Below are positions 2,431-54,675 of a stretch of 64,000 nt of DNA, piece after piece (position 1 is the stretch's first letter; each line of letters begins with the position of its first letter). The notes beneath the pieces are model-generated. The model was not told the DNA's origin and did not search any database. It saw only the letters and a program-made list of their open reading frames with translations. Source of the stretch: Actinomadura citrea (GTDB lineage: Bacteria; Actinomycetota; Actinomycetes; Streptosporangiales; Streptosporangiaceae). The stretch lies in contig NZ_JACCBT010000001.1 in assembly GCF_013409045.1 (NCBI RefSeq), positions 4,526,001 through 4,590,000 of the forward strand, given 5' to 3'. The translations under genes and the position numbers were made by a program.

Positions 2431-3793
2431 TGTGCACGCCGCCGGGTGCACCCGGGCCCCGCCGCCGCAGCACCAGCCACCGGCCGCCCAGCCCCACGGC
2501 GAACATCGCCGCCCCCGCCAGCACCGACGTCCACGGCAACGCCACCACCAGGACCACGCACCCCGCGGCGCCGAGCACGTTGAGCGCCCGCGGCCGGCGG
2601 CGATCGGCCGCCGGCTGGGTGAACGCGCACACGTTGGCGACCGCGTAGTACACCAGGACACCGAACGAGGAGAACCCGATCACCCCGCGCAGGTCCGCCG
2701 CCGCCACCAGCGCGCACACCGCGACCGCCACGGCGACCTCGGCATGGTGCGGCACCCGGTACCGGGGATGCACGGCCGCCAGCCACCCCGGCAGGTCGCG
2801 GTGCCGCGCCATGGCCAGCGCCGTGCGGCCGATCCCCGCGATCAGCGCCAGCAGCGCGCCCAGCGACGCCACCGCCGCGCCCGCCCGCACCACCGGCGCC
2901 AGCGCCCCGGCCCCCGCCGCCTCGACCGCGGCCGCCAGCGGCGCCGCCGCGGCCGCCAGAACGTCCGGCCCCGCCGCCAGCAGCGCCGCCGCTCCCACCA
3001 CCAGGTACACCGCCACCGCGATGGACAGCGCCACCGGGATCGCCCGGGGGATCGTGCGGGCCGGGTCCCGCACCTCCTCGCCCATCGTCGCGATGCGGGC
3101 GTAGCCGGCGAAGGCGAAGAACAGCAGCCCCGCGGCCTGCAGCACGCCGTGGACGCCGCCCTCGCCCACCGCCGTCCACCCGCCCAGGCGCGCCGCGCTC
3201 GCCTGCCCGCCCGCCGCGATCCCCGCCACCACGACGGCCAGCACCGCCAAGCCGGCGACCACCAGCACCCGCGTGAGCAGCGCCGTCCTGGTCACCCCGC
3301 GATAGTTCAGCGACGCCAGCGCCACCACGGCCGCCGCCGCGACCGCGCGGCGGACCCACCCCGGGCCGGGCACCGCGTAGGAGGCGAACGTGAGCGCCAT
3401 GGCGGCGCACGAGGCGGTCTTGCCCACCACGAAGCCCCAGCCCGCCGCGAACCCCCACCACGGGCCCAGGCGCTCGCGGCCGTACACGTAGGTGCCGCCC
3501 GACATCGGATACACCGCCGCGAGCTGCGCCGAGGCGACCGCGTTGCAGTACGCGACCCCCGCCGCGACCACCAGCCCCACCAGCAGGCCCGTGCCCGCCA
3601 CCCGCGCCGCGGGCCCGAACACGGCGAACACCCCCGCCCCGACCATCGACCCGAGGCCGATCAGCACCGCGTCCCCGGTGCCCAGCCGCCGCGCCAGCCG
3701 GTCGCCCCCGGCGGACGGCCCGCCCGGTCCGGGCCCGGCCGATCCGGACGCCGCCGTCTCGGCCCGGCCCCGGTTCCGGCGCCGGATCGCCAT
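2414..3793 (-). CDS. APC-family amino acid/polyamine permease
   Basis: A 459-residue integral membrane protein with about 12 hydrophobic segments and the APC first-helix signature (GDAVLIGLGSMVGAGVFAVFG at residues ~38-58, containing the substrate-backbone-binding GSMVGAG). A basic, Gly/Ser/Pro-rich cytoplasmic tail precedes it. It should import an amino acid or related amine with protons; the substrate cannot be read from sequence. It starts 49 bases from the divergent ArsR-phosphatase fusion, and a perfect CATCAA-N6-TTGATG operator lies between, so the fusion protein may control it. It overlaps the downstream thioesterase start. Confidence 0.88.
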   Translation of the reverse strand: MAIRRRNRGRAETAASGSAGPGPGGPSAGGDRLARRLGTGDAVLIGLGSMVGAGVFAVFGPAARVAGTGLLVGLVVAAGVAYCNAVASAQLAAVYPMSGGTYVYGRERLGPWWGFAAGWGFVVGKTASCAAMALTFASYAVPGPGWVRRAVAAAAVVALASLNYRGVTRTALLTRVLVVAGLAVLAVVVAGIAAGGQASAARLGGWTAVGEGGVHGVLQAAGLLFFAFAGYARIATMGEEVRDPARTIPRAIPVALSIAVAVYLVVGAAALLAAGPDVLAAAAAPLAAAVEAAGAGALAPVVRAGAAVASLGALLALIAGIGRTALAMARHRDLPGWLAAVHPRYRVPHHAEVAVAVAVCALVAAADLRGVIGFSSFGVLVYYAVANVCAFTQPAADRRRPRALNVLGAAGCVVLVVALPWTSVLAGAAMFAVGLGGRWLVLRRRGPGAPGGVHNAGYG

Positions 3794-46336: not shown

Positions 46337-46873
46337 ATGACCGAGGTCAAGCAGGTACTCCAACAGCAGATGTCCACCGCTTGGGCACTGCTCGACTACC
46401 ACGTGCAGCAGTGGCGCGACGACGACCTGTTCTGGGAACCGGCGCCGTCACACTGGACGATGCACCAGGTCGAGGGCGGTTGGGCTCCCGACTTCGCCGA
46501 GGTCGAGCCCACTCCTGTCCCGGCCCCCACGATCGCATGGCTGACCTGGCACATCGGCTGGTGGTGGACCACAGCACTCGCTCACCTGGAACGAACCGAC
46601 ATCCCGGCCCGCGAAGACATCGGCTGGCCGGGCACCTGCGCCTCGATCACCGAATGGCTGGGGAACATCCACCAGGCGTGGCGAACGGGGCTGGCCGCCA
46701 CCGACCGCCTCGACGACGAATCGGCGTTCCCCTGGCCCGCAGGATCGGGCCACACCGTCGCCGACATGTGCGCATGGGTGAACATCGAGCTGACAAAGAA
46801 CGCCGCCGAGATCGGTCAGCTACTGATCCTTCGACACGCACGACACCGACCGGCGCACCGTTCACCTCGCTGA
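46337..46873 (+). CDS. DinB-family protein
   Basis: 178 residues. DinB-like helices: WALLDYHVQQWRDDDLFWEPAPSHWTMHQ, then TIAWLTWHIGWWWTTALAHLERTD (His), and WVNIELTKNAAEIGQLLIL. The usual late HxxxH ligands are not evident, so metal binding may be reduced. ATG lies directly after the TGA of the oxidoreductase with no gap, so it is coupled. Probably a thiol-transfer partner of the reductase. Confidence 0.86.
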   Translation: MTEVKQVLQQQMSTAWALLDYHVQQWRDDDLFWEPAPSHWTMHQVEGGWAPDFAEVEPTPVPAPTIAWLTWHIGWWWTTALAHLERTDIPAREDIGWPGTCASITEWLGNIHQAWRTGLAATDRLDDESAFPWPAGSGHTVADMCAWVNIELTKNAAEIGQLLILRHARHRPAHRSPR

Positions 46874-47131
46874 AACGGCTTCAGTCAGCCGGCGCAGTGC
46901 CCACGACCTCTCCACGCCGAACTGGTGAAAAAGCGCAGGCTGTCGCGCCAGCCTGGCATCACCTTCCGAGGACCAGAGCGTCAGCGCCACCATCGAGGGG
47001 GACAGCGCCGGCCTGCGATGCCCGACATCTCCCAGACGCCGTCCGAGGAGCTGGAGATGAACGGCCTTGACGGGGGCGGTGTGAGCGTGGCATCCTGATT
47101 GCGGGATCGAGGTTGACTATTTATGTAGGTG
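46874..47131. other. Gene-poor stretch upstream of the solitary rpoB
   Basis: From the DinB-like stop to the rpoB start there are 390 bases with no convincing gene. A 26-codon open frame (ATG 47018, stop TGA 47096-47098) reads MPDISQTPSEELEMNG then LDGGGVSVAS; it has no well-placed Shine-Dalgarno and no recognised family. TTGACT at 47113-47118 could be an additional -35. The last 130 bases hold the rpoB promoter. Confidence 0.4.
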
Positions 47132-47161
47132 TGGACATCTGTCTGCATTCTGCTCTATGCT
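47132..47161 (+). promoter_or_regulatory. Predicted sigma-70-type promoter of the solitary rpoB
   Basis: TGGACA (47132-47137) and TATGCT (47156-47161), spacer 18, both close to consensus. Expected start near 47168, giving a 5' leader of about 96 bases before TTG 47264. This local promoter shows the gene need not depend on an upstream ribosomal-protein operon. Confidence 0.6.
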
Positions 47162-47263
47162 GCCCTTCCGTGCTCGCCTCGACGTCCCCTCCCTCCGTAT
47201 CGGCCGTGATGTCGTCCGGCGTGCGCGCCGTCAACCCGCCGCGAGCCCTCGGAAGGACACCTG

Positions 47264-50200
47264 TTGGCAGCCTCGCGCACCGCTTCCGCCGTACCCGCCG
47301 GTCCCCGCCGCGTCTCTTTCTCACGCATCCACGAGCCTCTCGAGGTTCCCGATCTGCTCGCCCTGCAGACCAACTCCTTCGACTGGCTGGTCGGAAACGA
47401 GCGCTGGAAGGCCCGGGTCGAGGCGGCCCAGAAGGCCGGAAGTAAGAGCGTCCCGACGCAGTCGGGGCTGGAGGAGATCTTCGAAGAGATCAGTCCGATC
47501 GAGGACTTCTCCGGGACGATGTCCCTGTCGTTCCGGGATCACCGGTTCGAGCCTCCGAAGTACTCCGTGGAGGAGTGCAAGGACAAGGACATGACCTACT
47601 CCGCCCCGATGTTCGTCACGGCGGAGTTCATCAACAACACCACCGGTGAGATCAAGAGCCAGACGGTGTTCATGGGCGACTTCCCGCTCATGACCCCCAA
47701 GGGGACGTTCATCGTCAACGGCACCGAGCGGGTGGTGACGTCCCAGCTGACGCGTTCGCCGGGGGTGTACTTCGATCGGGCGCTGGACAAGGCGTCGGAC
47801 AAGGACATCTACGGGTGCCGGGTGATCCCGAGTCGGGGTGCCTGGCTTGAGTTCGAGATCGACAAGCGCGACAACGTGGGTGTGCGCATCGACCGCAAGC
47901 GCAAGCAGCCGGTGACGGTGCTGCTGAAGGCGCTGGGGTGGGACGAGGCGCGGATCCGGGAGCGGTTCGGCTCGTATGAGTCGATCAATGTGACGCTGGA
48001 GAAGGATCACACCTCCGGGCAGGATGACGCGCTGCTGGACATCTACCGCAAGCTGCGGCCGGGTGAGCCGCCGACGCGGGAGTCGGCGCAGACGCTGCTG
48101 GAGAATCTGTACTTCAATCCCAAGCGGTACGACGTGGCGAAGGTCGGCCGTTACAAGATCAACAAGAAGCTCGGTCTGGACCTGGACATGAACCAGGGGA
48201 CGTTGACCGAGGATGACGTGGTCGCCACGATCGAGTATCTGGTGCGTCTGCATGCGGGTGAGGAGGAGGCGACCCTGGGCAGTGTGGCGGTGCCGATCGA
48301 GGTCGATGACATCGACCATTTCGGTAACCGGCGGCTGCGCACGGTGGGGGAGCTGATCCAGAACCAGGTGCGTCTGGGGCTGGCCCGCATGGAGCGTGTG
48401 GTGCGGGAGCGGATGACGACGCAGGACGTCGAGGCGATCACGCCGCAGACGTTGATCAACATTCGGCCGGTGGTGGCCTCCATCAAGGAGTTCTTCGGCA
48501 CCAGCCAGTTGTCGCAGTTCATGGACCAGACCAACCCTCTGGCCGGGCTCACCCACAAGCGGCGGCTGAACGCGCTCGGCCCGGGCGGTCTGTCGCGTGA
48601 GCGGGCGAGCATGGAGGTCCGTGACGTCCACCCGTCGCACTACGGGCGGATGTGTCCGATCGAGACGCCCGAAGGCCCCAACATCGGCCTCATGGGGTCC
48701 CTGTCGTCCTTCGCACGCGTCAACCCCTTCGGCTTCATCGAGACGCCCTACCGCAAGGCCGTCGAAGGCCGCGTGACCGACGAGATCGAGTACCTGACGG
48801 CCGACGTCGAGGACCGCTACGTCATCGCGCAGGCCAACACGCCGCTCGACTCCGACGGCGCCTTCGCCGAGGACCGCGTGCTCGTCCGCCGCAAGGGCGG
48901 CGAGATCGAGGCGATCCGGCCCGACGAGGTCGACTACATGGACGTCTCACCGCGCCAGATGGTGTCGGTCGCGACGGCGATGATCCCGTTCCTGGAGCAT
49001 GACGACGCCAACCGGGCGTTGATGGGTTCGAACATGCAGCGTCAGTCGGTGCCGCTGTTGCGTAGTGAGGCGCCGCTGGTCGGGACGGGTATGGAGTACC
49101 GTGCCGCGACCGATGCGGGTGATGTGATCACTGCGGAGAAGGCGGGTGTGGTCGAGGAGGTCTCGGCCGACTACGTCACGGTGATGAACGATGACGGGAC
49201 CCGGACGACGTATCGGGTGTCGAAGTTCAAGCGGTCCAACCAGGGCACGTGCTTCAACCAGAAGCCGATCGTGGACGAGGGCCGGCGGGTCGAGGTCGGT
49301 CAGGTGATCGCCGATGGGCCGTGCACCGATGACGGTGAGATGGCGCTGGGCAAGAACCTGCTGGTGGCGTTCATGCCGTGGGAGGGCCACAACTACGAAG
49401 ACGCGATCATCCTGTCGCAGCGGCTGGTGCAGGACGATGTGCTGTCCTCGATCCACATCGAGGAGCACGAGGTCGACGCCCGGGACACCAAGCTGGGTCC
49501 TGAGGAGATCACCCGTGATATCCCGAACGTGTCCGAGGAGGTCCTGGCCGACCTGGACGAGCGGGGGATCATCCGGATCGGTGCCGATGTGGTGCCCGGT
49601 GACATCCTGGTCGGCAAGGTCACTCCGAAGGGGGAGACCGAGCTGACGCCCGAGGAGCGGCTGCTGCGGGCGATCTTCGGTGAGAAGGCGCGTGAGGTGC
49701 GCGACACCTCGCTGAAGGTGCCGCACGGTGAGCAGGGCAAGGTCATCGGGGTGCGGGTGTTCTCCCGTGACGACGGTGACGAGCTGCCGCCGGGGGTCAA
49801 CGAGCTGGTCCGGGTGTACGTGGCGCAGAAGCGCAAGATCACCGATGGGGACAAGCTCGCGGGCCGGCACGGCAACAAGGGCGTCATCTCCAAGGTGCTG
49901 CCGGTGGAGGACATGCCGTTCCTGGAGGACGGCACCCCCGTCGACATCGTCCTGAACCCCCTGGGCGTGCCCGGCCGCATGAACGTCGGACAGGTCCTGG
50001 AGACCCACCTCGGCTGGATCGCCTCCCGCGGCTGGGACATCAGCGGGGTGGAGGAGGAGTGGGCCGGGCGGCTGAGGGACAAGGGCCTCGACCGCGTCGA
50101 GCCGCGCACCAACGTCGCCACCCCCGTCTTCGACGGCGCCGGGGAGCAGGAGATCATCGGCCTGCTCGGCACCACGCTGGTCAACCGCGACGGCGACCGC

Positions 50201-50740
50201 ATGGTGATGCCCACCGGCAAGGCGCGGATGTTCGACGGCCGCACCGGCGAGCCCTACCGGGAGCCCATCTCGGTCGGCTACATCTACATCCTCAAGCTGC
50301 ACCACCTGGTCGACGACAAGATCCACGCCCGTTCGACCGGCCCGTACTCCATGATCACCCAGCAGCCGCTCGGCGGTAAGGCCCAGTTCGGCGGCCAGCG
50401 CTTCGGTGAGATGGAGGTCTGGGCACTGGAGGCCTACGGCGCCGCCTACGCCCTCCAGGAGCTGCTGACCATCAAGTCCGACGACGTCCTCGGCCGCGTG
50501 AAGGTCTACGAGGCCATCGTCAAGGGCGAGAACATCCCCGAGCCCGGCATTCCCGAGTCCTTCAAGGTGCTCATCAAGGAGATGCAGTCGCTGTGCCTCA
50601 ACGTCGAGGTGCTCTCCAGCGACGGCATGTCCATCGAGATGCGCGACACCGACGAGGACGTCTTCCGCGCCGCGGAGGAGCTCGGCATCGACCTCTCCCG
50701 CCGCCCGAACGAGGGCGCGATGAACGTCGACGAGATCTGA
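47264..50740 (+). CDS. rpoB: RNA polymerase beta subunit, solitary second-type copy with rifampicin-pocket substitutions
   Basis: 1,158 residues, full-length actinobacterial beta subunit from [18 protein letters not shown] to the C-terminal [16 protein letters not shown] start with GGAAGG (47251-47256). The rif region reads [29 protein letters not shown]. Relative to E. coli numbering: V146 is Thr159 here, N518 is Thr423, S531 is Asn436 and I572 is Met477, while D516 and H526 positions are unchanged. rplJ/rplL do not precede it and rpoC does not follow; the next gene is opposite-strand. All known housekeeping rpoB genes of actinomycetes are followed by rpoC, so this is likely a paralogue of the Nonomuraea rpoB(R)/Nocardia rpoB2 type that gives rifampicin resistance and alters expression. 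Codon use changes in blocks (48,660 / 48,960 / 49,910). Confidence 0.95.
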
Positions 50741-50783
50741 CGGCCGGCGCCTCCGGCCCGAGCGCTCGCCCCCCATCGCGGGA

Positions 50784-50809
50784 GGCGGCCGCCCGGGCCG
50801 GGGGCCGCC
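50784..50809. terminator. Possible terminator after rpoB
   Basis: GGCGGCC (50784-50790) pairs with GGCCGCC (50803-50809), 44 bases after the rpoB stop, in a GC-rich gap before the convergent dehydrogenase gene. Stem short, so modest support. Confidence 0.35.
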
Positions 50810-50825
50810 CGGTCCCCGAGAGCGG

Positions 50826-51857
50826 TCATCGGCGCAGGTCGAACGACAGGTGCGCGGACAGCGCGCGCAGGAAGTCGGCCGCGTCGAAGATCTCCCCGGC
50901 GGAGGCGGCGCCGGTCGTCCTGGTCCGGCCCGTGAGGATGCGGCCGACCGCCTCCACCGCCAGCGGCGCGCTGACGGCGTAGATGTCCCGGCCGCTCGCC
51001 GTCGCGCGCCGTTCCTCGCCGCCGGAGCGCACGACGACATCGACCAGGAACGTCTGGTCGGAGCGTCCGCGTTCGTCGGCGGCCTCCGGCGCCGGCGTGT
51101 CGGGGGCCGACAGGTCCTCGACCGCCTCGACGGTCATGTACGAGCGCACCTCGGGGACCGCCAGGTGGCTGGGGATCGTGACGACGTCGGCCATGCTGAA
51201 CTCCCCGATGACGGGCCGGACGCCCATCGGCTCGGGGAACGTCCACTTCAACGAGGGGAGCACGTGCTGGTGGTAGTCCAACCTCCCGCCGGTGAAGCGG
51301 ACCCGCCGCCCGTCGCGCCGCTCGTGGGAGACCGTGCCCGCGGCGCGCGTGCCCGTGGTGGGGCGCCAGCTGCTCAACCCGTAGGCGACGTGCACCTCGT
51401 CGGCGGCGGTCCAGTCGCCCATCGCGGCGGTGGCCAGCAGGTCGCCGAGTCCGCCGAAGAAGGCCATCGCGGGAACGACCGCGACTCCCGCGTCGCGGGC
51501 GCGCTCGGCGAAGTGCGCGAGCGTGTCGGCGTTGGCCTCGATCTCGGCCGCCACGTCCACGTAGGGGATGCCGGCGCGCAGCGCCGCCTCGATCACCGGC
51601 CCGGCCGTCGCGGCGAAGGGTCCCGCGCAGTTGACCACCGCGGCGGCGCCGGCCAGGGCGCGGTCGAGCGACGCCGGATCGTCGGCCGACGCGGGCCGGA
51701 CGTCCAGCCCTGGAAAGGATTCCGCCAGTGCTTGCAGCTTCCCGGCGTCGCGGCCGGACGGCACCGGGACGAACCCGCGGTCCCGCAGCTCCGCCACAAC
51801 GAACCGCCCGGTGTGCCCGTACGCGCCGAACACCGCGACCGTCTGACCCGCACCCAT
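50826..51857 (-). CDS. Saccharopine-dehydrogenase-like/trans-acting enoyl reductase family protein
   Basis: 343 residues. N-terminal Rossmann AVFGAYGHTGRFVVAELRDRGF, then VVNCAGPFAATAGPVIEAALRAGIPYVDVAAE, the hallmark of the saccharopine-dehydrogenase-like family (Sccpdh_NADP), followed by a long C-domain. In actinomycetes the family includes enoyl reductases of lipid synthesis; the substrate here is unknown. GGGAGAG before ATG 51857. Convergent with rpoB; divergent from the GlxA-type regulator 101 bases away. Confidence 0.88.
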   Translation of the reverse strand: MGAGQTVAVFGAYGHTGRFVVAELRDRGFVPVPSGRDAGKLQALAESFPGLDVRPASADDPASLDRALAGAAAVVNCAGPFAATAGPVIEAALRAGIPYVDVAAEIEANADTLAHFAERARDAGVAVVPAMAFFGGLGDLLATAAMGDWTAADEVHVAYGLSSWRPTTGTRAAGTVSHERRDGRRVRFTGGRLDYHQHVLPSLKWTFPEPMGVRPVIGEFSMADVVTIPSHLAVPEVRSYMTVEAVEDLSAPDTPAPEAADERGRSDQTFLVDVVVRSGGEERRATASGRDIYAVSAPLAVEAVGRILTGRTRTTGAASAGEIFDAADFLRALSAHLSFDLRR

Positions 51858-51958
51858 CGTCTCTCCCGTTGCCCTCGGTCGAACCACTGGACCGATCATG
51901 GCGGCGGCGGCCGTCCCGCACGAGCGTCCGGAACGCCATGCCTCGTACAATTCCGGAC

Positions 51959-52960: not shown

Positions 52961-53133
52961 CGACCCCCGTTCCAGGACGCCTCCCGGCGAATCCGCCCCG
53001 GCAGATCGTCGTGCTCCTGACGTAGCCGATCTGCCTGCCCGGTTCCAACGCGGTCCGCACCACGGCCGCGATCTCAATACGCCCCGGCATGTGCCGGGCC
53101 GATGGCACGTGCCGTTCAATCGAGGGAGAGTGC

Positions 53134-54675
53134 ATGGACGCCGATGTGATCATTGTGGGTGCCGGTCCGACCGGCCTGATGCTGGCCTGCGAGCTGCGGT
53201 TGACCGGTGCGCGGCCGCTGGTCCTGGAACGCCAGCCGCAACGCCGCGACACCCCGAAGGCCGGGGGCCTGGGCGGGCAGATCCTGGAGCTGCTGCGCTA
53301 CCGGGGGCTGCTGGACCGCCTCGAAGCGGCCTGCACCGCCCCTGTTCCGGCCCCCCGGTTCCCCTTCGGCGGGGTGCACCTGGACTTCACCCGCCTGCAG
53401 GATCCCCCGATGCACGCGCTGCCGCTGCCGCAGCAGCTGCTGGAGCGGGTGCTCGCCGAACGCGCCGGCGAACTCGGCACCGAGGTCCGGCTGGGGCACC
53501 AGGTGGTCGGGGTGAGCCAGGACGATGCCGCGGTGACCGCGGAGGTGCGCGGCCCGGACGGGACCTACCAGGTGAGCGCCCACTACCTGGTGGGGTGCGA
53601 CGGTGCGCGCAGCCGCGTCCGCGACCGGGCGGGGATCGGCTTCCCCGGCACGACCTATCCGGAGGTCAATCGGCTGGCCCAGGTCACCCTGCCCGACACG
53701 GTGACCGTGCTCGGCGACGGCGACCTCGACGTCCCCGGCTACGGCACGATCCGTGCGGGGTTCACCCAGACCGACCGCGGTCTGTTCGGTCTCGGCTCGT
53801 CTCCGGACTCCAAGGTCGTGTCGCTCTACACCACCGAGGACGAGGCCGTCGAGTACGACGACGACGTGCCGATGACCGTGGCCGAACTCCAGGGCAGCAT
53901 CCGCCGCGTGCTCGGCGCGGACGTGCCCGTGGGGGAGGCGCACCGGCTGTCGCGGTTCACCTTCAAGGCCCGGCAGGCCGAGCACTACCGTCTCGGGCGG
54001 GTTCTGCTGGCCGGGGACGCGGCGCACCTGTTCCCCGCCACCGGCGTGGCGATCAACGCCGGCATGCTGGACTCGGTCAACCTGGCCTGGAAACTGGCCG
54101 CCGCCGTCCACGGCTGGGCGCCGTCGGGCCTGCTGGACACCTACCACGGCGAACGCCACTTCGCCGGCGCCCGCACCATGCTGCACACCCAGGCCCAGGT
54201 GGCGCTGCGGCGCGGGCACGATCCCGCCGCCGAAGCGCTCCGGGAGGTCTTCCAGGAACTGCTCGCCGACGAGCAGCCGCTGCTCCGCATGGGAGCGCTT
54301 CTCTCCGGCGCCGACATCCGCTACCCGATGCCCGGTGCCGCCCACCATCCCCTGGCCGGCACCTTCGCTCCCGATCTCACCCTGCACACCGACCAGGGCA
54401 TCATCGGCGTCGCCGACCTCATGCGCTCCGCGCGGCCCGTCCTGCTCGACCTCGCCGACCGGCCGGACCTGCGCGAGGCGGCCCGGGACCGGCAGCACCG
54501 CGTCGACGTCCGCACCGCCAAGACCGATGAGCGCCCGGCCGACGTCCTGCTGATCCGCCCGGACGCCCGCATCGCCTGGGCCGCGGCCGTCGACGAACCG
54601 GCCGACACCGCCGCGCCCGCGCTGCGCCAAGCGCTCTCCGACTGGTTCGGCGCTCCTGACGCCGACGGTGTCTGA
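53134..54675 (+). CDS. Class A FAD-dependent aromatic monooxygenase (PgaE/RIFMO-like layout)
   Basis: 513 residues. GxGxxG FAD motif VIIVGAGPTGLMLACELRLTGARPLVLER, then the DG motif YLVGCDGARSRVRDRAGI and GD motif VLLAGDAAHLFPATGVAINAGMLDSVNLAWKLAA, plus a C-terminal thioredoxin-like domain (DVLLIRPDARIAWAA). Typical of polyketide hydroxylases and rifampicin monooxygenase (Rox). The GD motif reads GVAINAGMLDS instead of the usual GQGLNTGIQDA. GAGGGAGAG before ATG 53134. It lies 2.4 kb from the solitary rpoB; a link to rifamycins is speculative. Convergent with the next monooxygenase. Confidence 0.9.
   Translation: MDADVIIVGAGPTGLMLACELRLTGARPLVLERQPQRRDTPKAGGLGGQILELLRYRGLLDRLEAACTAPVPAPRFPFGGVHLDFTRLQDPPMHALPLPQQLLERVLAERAGELGTEVRLGHQVVGVSQDDAAVTAEVRGPDGTYQVSAHYLVGCDGARSRVRDRAGIGFPGTTYPEVNRLAQVTLPDTVTVLGDGDLDVPGYGTIRAGFTQTDRGLFGLGSSPDSKVVSLYTTEDEAVEYDDDVPMTVAELQGSIRRVLGADVPVGEAHRLSRFTFKARQAEHYRLGRVLLAGDAAHLFPATGVAINAGMLDSVNLAWKLAAAVHGWAPSGLLDTYHGERHFAGARTMLHTQAQVALRRGHDPAAEALREVFQELLADEQPLLRMGALLSGADIRYPMPGAAHHPLAGTFAPDLTLHTDQGIIGVADLMRSARPVLLDLADRPDLREAARDRQHRVDVRTAKTDERPADVLLIRPDARIAWAAAVDEPADTAAPALRQALSDWFGAPDADGV

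Follow-up and report, generated by a model that had tools for sequence, protein, structure and literature searches.

Second copies of rpoB are the closest described counterparts of the gene analysed here. In the available text of three reports, such copies are precedents for rifampicin resistance in Nonomuraea and Nocardia (PMC5431353, PMC10719064, PMC3975073), and the second rpoB of Nonomuraea also alters antibiotic production, as well as expression with pH (PMC5431353). As far as that text goes, rpoB(R) of Nonomuraea gerenzanensis ATCC 39727 is, like the solo rpoB of Actinomadura citrea, a second full-length rpoB that lacks an accompanying rpoC and is substituted in the rifamycin pocket (PMC5431353). 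Nocardia rpoB2 is likewise a second rpoB in the part of the source at hand (PMC10719064), and it is solo in N. farcinica (L130). It comes from a different bacterial family, however, and L130 falls among the outgroups on trees of the divergent segments (islands) described below. Nocardia rpoB2 was reportedly also the subject of a study by Ishikawa in 2006.

In genome G244, taken as N. gerenzanensis, the solo rpoB has V146T and S531N, as in A. citrea, and the pair of copies is likewise mosaic. Whereas N. gerenzanensis rpoB(R) has H526N and S574Y, both sites are unchanged in A. citrea, which instead carries I572M and G544S. The solo leader of G244 bears little resemblance to that of A. citrea (score 40), and its pair is less homogenised, with bodies 4.8% apart versus 0.2% in A. 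citrea. In the G244 solo gene (L140) we read S531N together with S574Y, where the available text has S531Y in rif cluster II (PMC5431353).

The A. citrea solo gene was found in a stretch of 64,000 nt (the window), at 47264..50740 on the + strand. Its reading frame starts with TTG, has the full RpoB length of 1,158 amino acids and contains no internal stops. The gene upstream is DinB-like and the downstream neighbour is a convergent saccharopine-dehydrogenase-like gene (50826..51950, − strand), so the preliminary description of a full-length, standalone RpoB with neither rpoC nor rplJ/rplL next to it was correct. It had also called for a search of the genome for another rpoB followed by rpoC. 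This search, on a genome that is one contig of 8.99 Mb, gave two rpoB genes in all. The main copy lies at 8302301-8305774 (− strand), is 93% identical to the solo copy, has V, S, G and I at positions 146, 531, 544 and 572, and is followed by the only rpoC found in the genome. The presence of this main copy rules out that the solo gene is the sole rpoB. A wider scan gave mostly distant rpoB genes; the closest matches among named records came from A. formosensis and A. craniellae. With a single rpoC, it is plausible from the gene content that A. citrea makes two polymerases sharing one beta-prime subunit.

Residue numbers of E. coli were placed by fitting on conserved motifs, using what we take to be the E. 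coli numbering of the RpoB pocket sites (146, 516, 518, 526, 531, 544, 572). The solo and main proteins of A. citrea differ at 80 amino acids, and solo residues V151, T159, T163, N436, S449, M477, S481, S482 and A484 correspond to I, V, V, S, G, I, A, A and G in the main copy. In E. coli numbering, the pocket changes are V146T, S531N, G544S and I572M. With a second full-length rpoB beside the rpoC-linked one and substitutions at contact positions relative to the main copy, the solo gene belongs to the duplicated actinomycete rpoB genes known as rpoB(R)/rpoB2; a pocket-altered rpoB duplication as such is already known. H526N, which is stressed for Nonomuraea rpoB(R), is absent from the A. citrea solo copy, where His431 is intact.

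The residues named earlier as resistance signs (Thr159, Asn436, Met477 and Thr423, with Asp421 and His431, the equivalents of D516 and H526, intact) are all present in the translation, but they differ in value. Thr159 and Met477 stand. Thr423 (N518) is a threonine in both A. citrea copies and therefore does not distinguish the solo copy, and Asn436 (S531N) is weak evidence because it occurs in 7 of 38 other rpoC-linked rpoB genes; neither can serve as proof of resistance. Ser449 (G544S), Thr163 and Val151 are further solo-specific residues that had not been cited, and it is Thr159 and Met477, with Ser449, that carry the resistance argument. The unchanged D516 and H526, which are the main resistance sites, count against it.

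The same positions were compared in 30 genomes with two long copies, six from this genus and 24 from others. In 29 of them one copy was linked to rpoC; in G312 the copy at a contig start was taken as the main one. As reference we used 68 rpoC-linked rows, i.e., the 30 mains and 38 others (16 named records and 22 further genomes, one of them the possibly chimaeric G020). Across 24 positions in or next to the pocket, every one of the 30 solo copies departs from its own main copy at least once. S531N was present in 21 of 30 solo copies and in none of their mains, next to the 7 of 38 other rpoC-linked copies (G002, G006, G082, G033, G025, G337 and L052). Four changes were confined to solo copies, with 0/68 in the rpoC-linked rows: V146T (7/30), H526N/Q (7/30), I572M (6/30) and S574Y (16/30). 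Fisher p values for solo versus rpoC-linked copies ranged from 5.6e-4 to 1.5e-10, which is too small since the rows are related. As H526 is replaced by N in five and by Q in two of the 30 solo copies, H526N does not define the whole group. D516Q was found in 2 of the 38 other rpoC-linked copies (G087 and A. formosensis) and, together with the Asn531 cases, indicates that pocket changes are not restricted to second copies. In G087 (L029) and A. formosensis (L071) this rpoC-linked gene is the only rpoB found, and its fork resembles that of the G069 and G031 solo copies; judged from the sequences, the main gene of these two may have taken over a solo-type pocket.

The reading as an extra, pocket-altered rpoB thus stood as regards the second copy, but a further property was not visible in the preliminary description: the solo gene is mosaic, and over most of its length it has been held almost identical to the resident rpoB. 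Of 3,474 bases, 198 differ between the two A. citrea genes. Only 6 of these differences fall in 15 of the 24 bins (2,250 nt), and the remaining nine bins (1,224 nt) contain 192. The differences are concentrated in four islands. The first covers the N-terminus (47264..47393, + strand, gene nt 1-130) and is other-genus-like in its diagnostic bases. The second, at the V146 loop (47714..47752, +, gene nt about 450-490), encodes residues 151-163 with Thr159 (V146T) and Thr163, and the third, the fork (48569..48964, +, gene nt about 1305-1702), encodes residues 436-567 with Asn436 (S531N), Ser449 (G544S) and Met477 (I572M). The fourth island (50018..50302, +, gene nt 2755-3039; residues 919-1013) is the most divergent segment, differing from the main copy at 27.0% of its bases; the histidine adjoining its end, residue 1014, presumably corresponds to E. 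coli H1237, near the initiating-nucleotide site. A near-identical mosaic profile was found in G061, G005 and G080, and also in G081 where it is readable (468 N).

The mosaic recurs in the 30 two-copy genomes. The fork (residues 421-580) and residues 919-1013 each exceed the body in divergence in 30/30 genomes, and both do so more than twofold in 21/30, with body differences between solo and main copy from 0.1% to 10.0%. The lobe at residues 316-350 is a further island in several other-genus genomes. For the body columns of seven genomes, paralogs are 0.2-0.7% apart and species about 2-9%. For the island columns, copies of the same type differ by 1.6-7.9% among the five nearest species, compared with about 21-23% between the types. 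When the nearest row was determined, the solo body joined its own main copy in 23 of 30 genomes and another genome's solo copy in seven, indicating that conversion is far from complete in these seven. In the fork, only 4/30 solo copies joined their own main, and in residues 919-1013 this number was 3/30, with 24/30 joining another genome's solo copy. The longest identical run over informative columns exceeded all 500 shuffles in 29 of 30 genomes; in G318 it was reached by 10 of 500. The solo branch is longer in the body for G031, G061, G005, G080 and G065, as expected if the main gene overwrites the solo gene, although it is not for A. citrea (G000). The pattern is that of concerted evolution with the islands spared, for which gene conversion would be the cause. 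In the open-licence literature, to the extent covered, we found no report of rpoB paralogs being mosaic or undergoing gene conversion. Relative to that literature, the spared-island mosaic, the fact that it recurs in several genera and the shared leader described below appear to be new.

We consider it probable that the solo gene is a second beta-subunit gene of the rpoB(R)/rpoB2 kind that has become a mosaic by conversion while its pocket was kept apart. The resident rpoB would have overwritten most of the solo gene, here and in related genomes, and the pocket segments and residues 919-1013 would stay different, probably by selection. The dN/dS ratio of the solo copies in the islands is about 0.11-0.15 among near species, which points to purifying selection on the solo gene. 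Against this, the ratio in residues 919-1013 rises to 0.59 in comparison with the more distant solo copy of G065.

The origin of the islands was examined with diagnostic bases, at which the 17 main-copy rows from this genus are fixed for one base and the 36 from other genera for another. In the N-terminus, the A. citrea solo copy carries the other-genus base at 16 of 20 such sites, in the fork at 14 of 18 and in residues 906-1015 at 31 of 42. Elsewhere it does so at 0 of 74, where 73 are own-genus and one is neither. Fisher's test on 61/14 versus 0/73 gives p = 2.4e-28, with sites that are not independent. The islands are thus mostly of an other-genus (Nonomuraea-like) type, and the rest of the gene is of own-genus type. 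The solo copies of G031 and G069 are of other-genus type at residues 906-1015 and of own-genus type in the fork, and that of G065 has mixed diagnostic bases in more places.

The leader gives a related result. The segment at 47067..47263 (+ strand) is conserved among solo copies, and homology to differently flanked solo loci stops near its left edge. The A. citrea solo leader scores (of 200) 106 with the solo leader of G262, 78 with that of G095 and 77 with that of G164, compared with 27 for its own main leader and a ceiling of 14 in 100 shuffles. Its median score is 42 against the 24 other-genus solo leaders, 42 against the 36 other-genus mains and 32 against own-genus mains, so that it is a leader of the other-genus kind, to which three solo leaders are markedly closer than the rest. 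It contains the promoter-like sequence TGGACA-N18-TATGCT (47132..47161, +), the sole such match in 46800-51000, where 0.3 are expected. Seven of the nine solo copies in the genus have the element in the same position, and the other two have a one-base variant of the first hexamer (compared by eye), which makes the own promoter claimed for the solo gene plausible. Among other genera, a pattern of the same class is present in 21 of 24 solo leaders and all 36 main leaders. It therefore represents the ordinary rpoB promoter of that group and is not specific to solo copies. An inverted repeat, (C)ATCC-N8-GGATCG at 47090..47109, read by eye in the leaders, is a candidate operator.

These comparisons favour lateral movement of the solo rpoB. 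A sharper form of the preferred reading, which may well be right but which we hold tentatively, is that gene and leader came from a Nonomuraea- or Streptosporangium-like genus and were later overwritten except in the islands. It agrees with the diagnostic bases, which are of other-genus type in the islands and nowhere else, and with the leader scores, in which G262, G095 and G164 far exceed the own main. The solo gene of G262 (taken as Nonomuraea roseoviolacea) has a body that is 98.6% identical to its own main copy, whereas its leader scores 120 with the Actinomadura-type solo leader of G065 and only 49 with its own main leader; in residues 919-1013 it is 86.3% identical to the A. citrea solo copy versus 84.6% to its own main, a small gap. 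Neighbour genes of the solo rpoB are common only to G061, G005, G080 and G081, while homology ends close to gene and leader in G007, G020, G031, G065 and G069, and likewise in the short flanks of G262, G164 and G095. On the other hand, the own-genus type of the G031 and G069 forks counts against such an origin, as do the equal median leader scores with other-genus solo copies and mains (32 with own-genus mains). In approximately unbiased (AU) tests, one Actinomadura clade for residues 919-1013 was not rejected (p = 0.149 for DNA, 0.117 for protein), and for the fork it was the grouping of Actinomadura solo copies with other genera that was rejected (p = 0.044); the AU results therefore cannot be used as proof of lateral origin. 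A tentative extension is that leader, promoter and gene travel together as a cassette: once it has entered a new genus, the host rpoB would rewrite all of the solo rpoB but the foreign-type pocket and C-terminal segment. Such rewriting would fit contacts with the host's other subunits and could yield a host-tailored second RNA polymerase.

The AU tests also do not reject an ancient duplication, which would have preceded the split of the genera and been kept by descent, the islands being an old difference and the Actinomadura main copy having changed at residues 919-1013. In the tree of island columns, the solo copies of the genus group together as a single clade (support 1.000), and the outgroups are ambiguous at residues 906-1015 (9 versus 7 columns), as this account would allow. 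It is nevertheless rather doubtful, because a lone rpoB in 5 of the 9 single-contig genomes of the genus requires many losses, and because the leaders are of several kinds, with the nearest ones in three other genus groups. That the mosaic is passive, with recombination failing where the copies are too divergent and the islands persisting without selection or special function, we regard as unlikely. Residues 316-350 and 919-1013 are generally fast-changing, and the former, the lobe, is as divergent as the islands in some genomes. However, the fork island spans strongly conserved pocket motifs, and solo-specific residues recur at drug-contact sites in separate genomes. Moreover, residues 316-350 are identical in 4 of 6 two-copy genomes of the genus, showing that overwriting can also reach fast-changing parts. 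A decaying or unexpressed extra copy, suggested by broken-frame rpoB copies in two drafts (G007 and G076, the latter beside rpoC), is very improbable in view of the low dN/dS in near species, the kept promoter and the open frame of all 30 analysed solo copies over the matched length, these having been chosen as intact matches.

Copy number in the genus and the order is affected by assembly. Matches to rpoB were found in 62 of 65 genomes of the genus, in two places in at least 15 of 65 (read from the listing), a lower bound since rpoB pieces stop at contig ends in eight drafts (G020, G024, G032, G060, G063, G066, G069 and G074). Four of the nine single-contig genomes have rpoB in two places. 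Over the order, at least 274 of 345 genomes match a query of residues 919-1013, but other-genus mains match it nearly as well as solo copies, and this count is therefore silent on second copies. In G020 (L012, L013), the one full rpoB is main-like in its leader and N-terminus and solo-type in its 3' part, and the remaining piece shows the opposite arrangement; this is likely an assembly chimaera via the identical body, and the genome was retained in the island and body trees and among the 38 other rpoC-linked rows. The broken frames in G007 (L017) and G076 (L024) reflect decay or sequencing error, and the rpoC by the G076 copy is also in two frames. The use of rpoB as a marker for these genera is affected too: draft contigs break within the gene, and the two copies may be mixed. 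With the body alone, the copies resemble recent separate duplications, which the islands contradict.

We also examined whether the solo gene is linked to other rifamycin defences. The rifamycin-associated element (RAE) was searched with a 19-bp palindrome whose letters we take to be correct, and no match was found in the 64,000-nt window at up to 3 mismatches, so that RAE control of the solo rpoB was rejected. Elsewhere in the genome, a rifampin monooxygenase (G000:C1:4644414, L191; 888.9 bits, cut-off 800) and a HelR homologue (G000:C1:5158616, L192; 774.6 bits over an incomplete stretch, cut-off 750) each have an RAE-like palindrome with one mismatch on their 5' side. These loci lie about 68 kb and 582 kb past the solo rpoB end region and indicate that A. 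citrea has other rifamycin defences. Arr (PF12120) was absent in the genome search. A role of RAE in rifamycin resistance is described in the available parts of two papers, with HelR and rifampin monooxygenase under its control (PMC12802891, PMC10719064), and A. citrea has both genes by near-perfect RAE sites. According to the same text, these proteins free the polymerase or alter the drug, a difference from the solo rpoB, whose surroundings lack the element. The convergent-promoter alarm of PMC12802891, as far as the available text describes it, was dropped because a simple consensus scan of 46800-51000 gave no minus-strand promoter. An FAD aromatic-ring hydroxylase of the rifampin-monooxygenase superfamily is encoded at 53089..54675, 2.3 kb downstream of the solo rpoB, and homologues are also located 3' of the solo rpoB in G061, G005, G080 and G081. 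Its assignment as rifampin monooxygenase was dropped (316.8 bits versus the cut-off of 800).

In the preferred reading of a converted second beta-subunit gene, the solo rpoB would be transcribed from its own leader and promoter, and its product would combine with the shared subunits to form a second polymerase with an altered rifamycin pocket. By analogy with the described systems, the main enzyme would serve ordinary growth and the second would allow transcription under RNA-polymerase inhibitors such as rifamycins, perhaps with a changed expression programme, as reported for Nonomuraea. Rifampicin resistance is probably conferred, as it fits the 30-genome pattern and the Nonomuraea and Nocardia precedents. 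On the same analogy, the second enzyme would most likely serve as a spare polymerase when rifamycin-like inhibitors are present, and it may prefer other promoters. The mosaic bears on the question why some bacteria keep two RNA polymerases: it singles out the segments that stay different, i.e., the rifamycin pocket and residues 919-1013, while the rest of the two copies is held alike.
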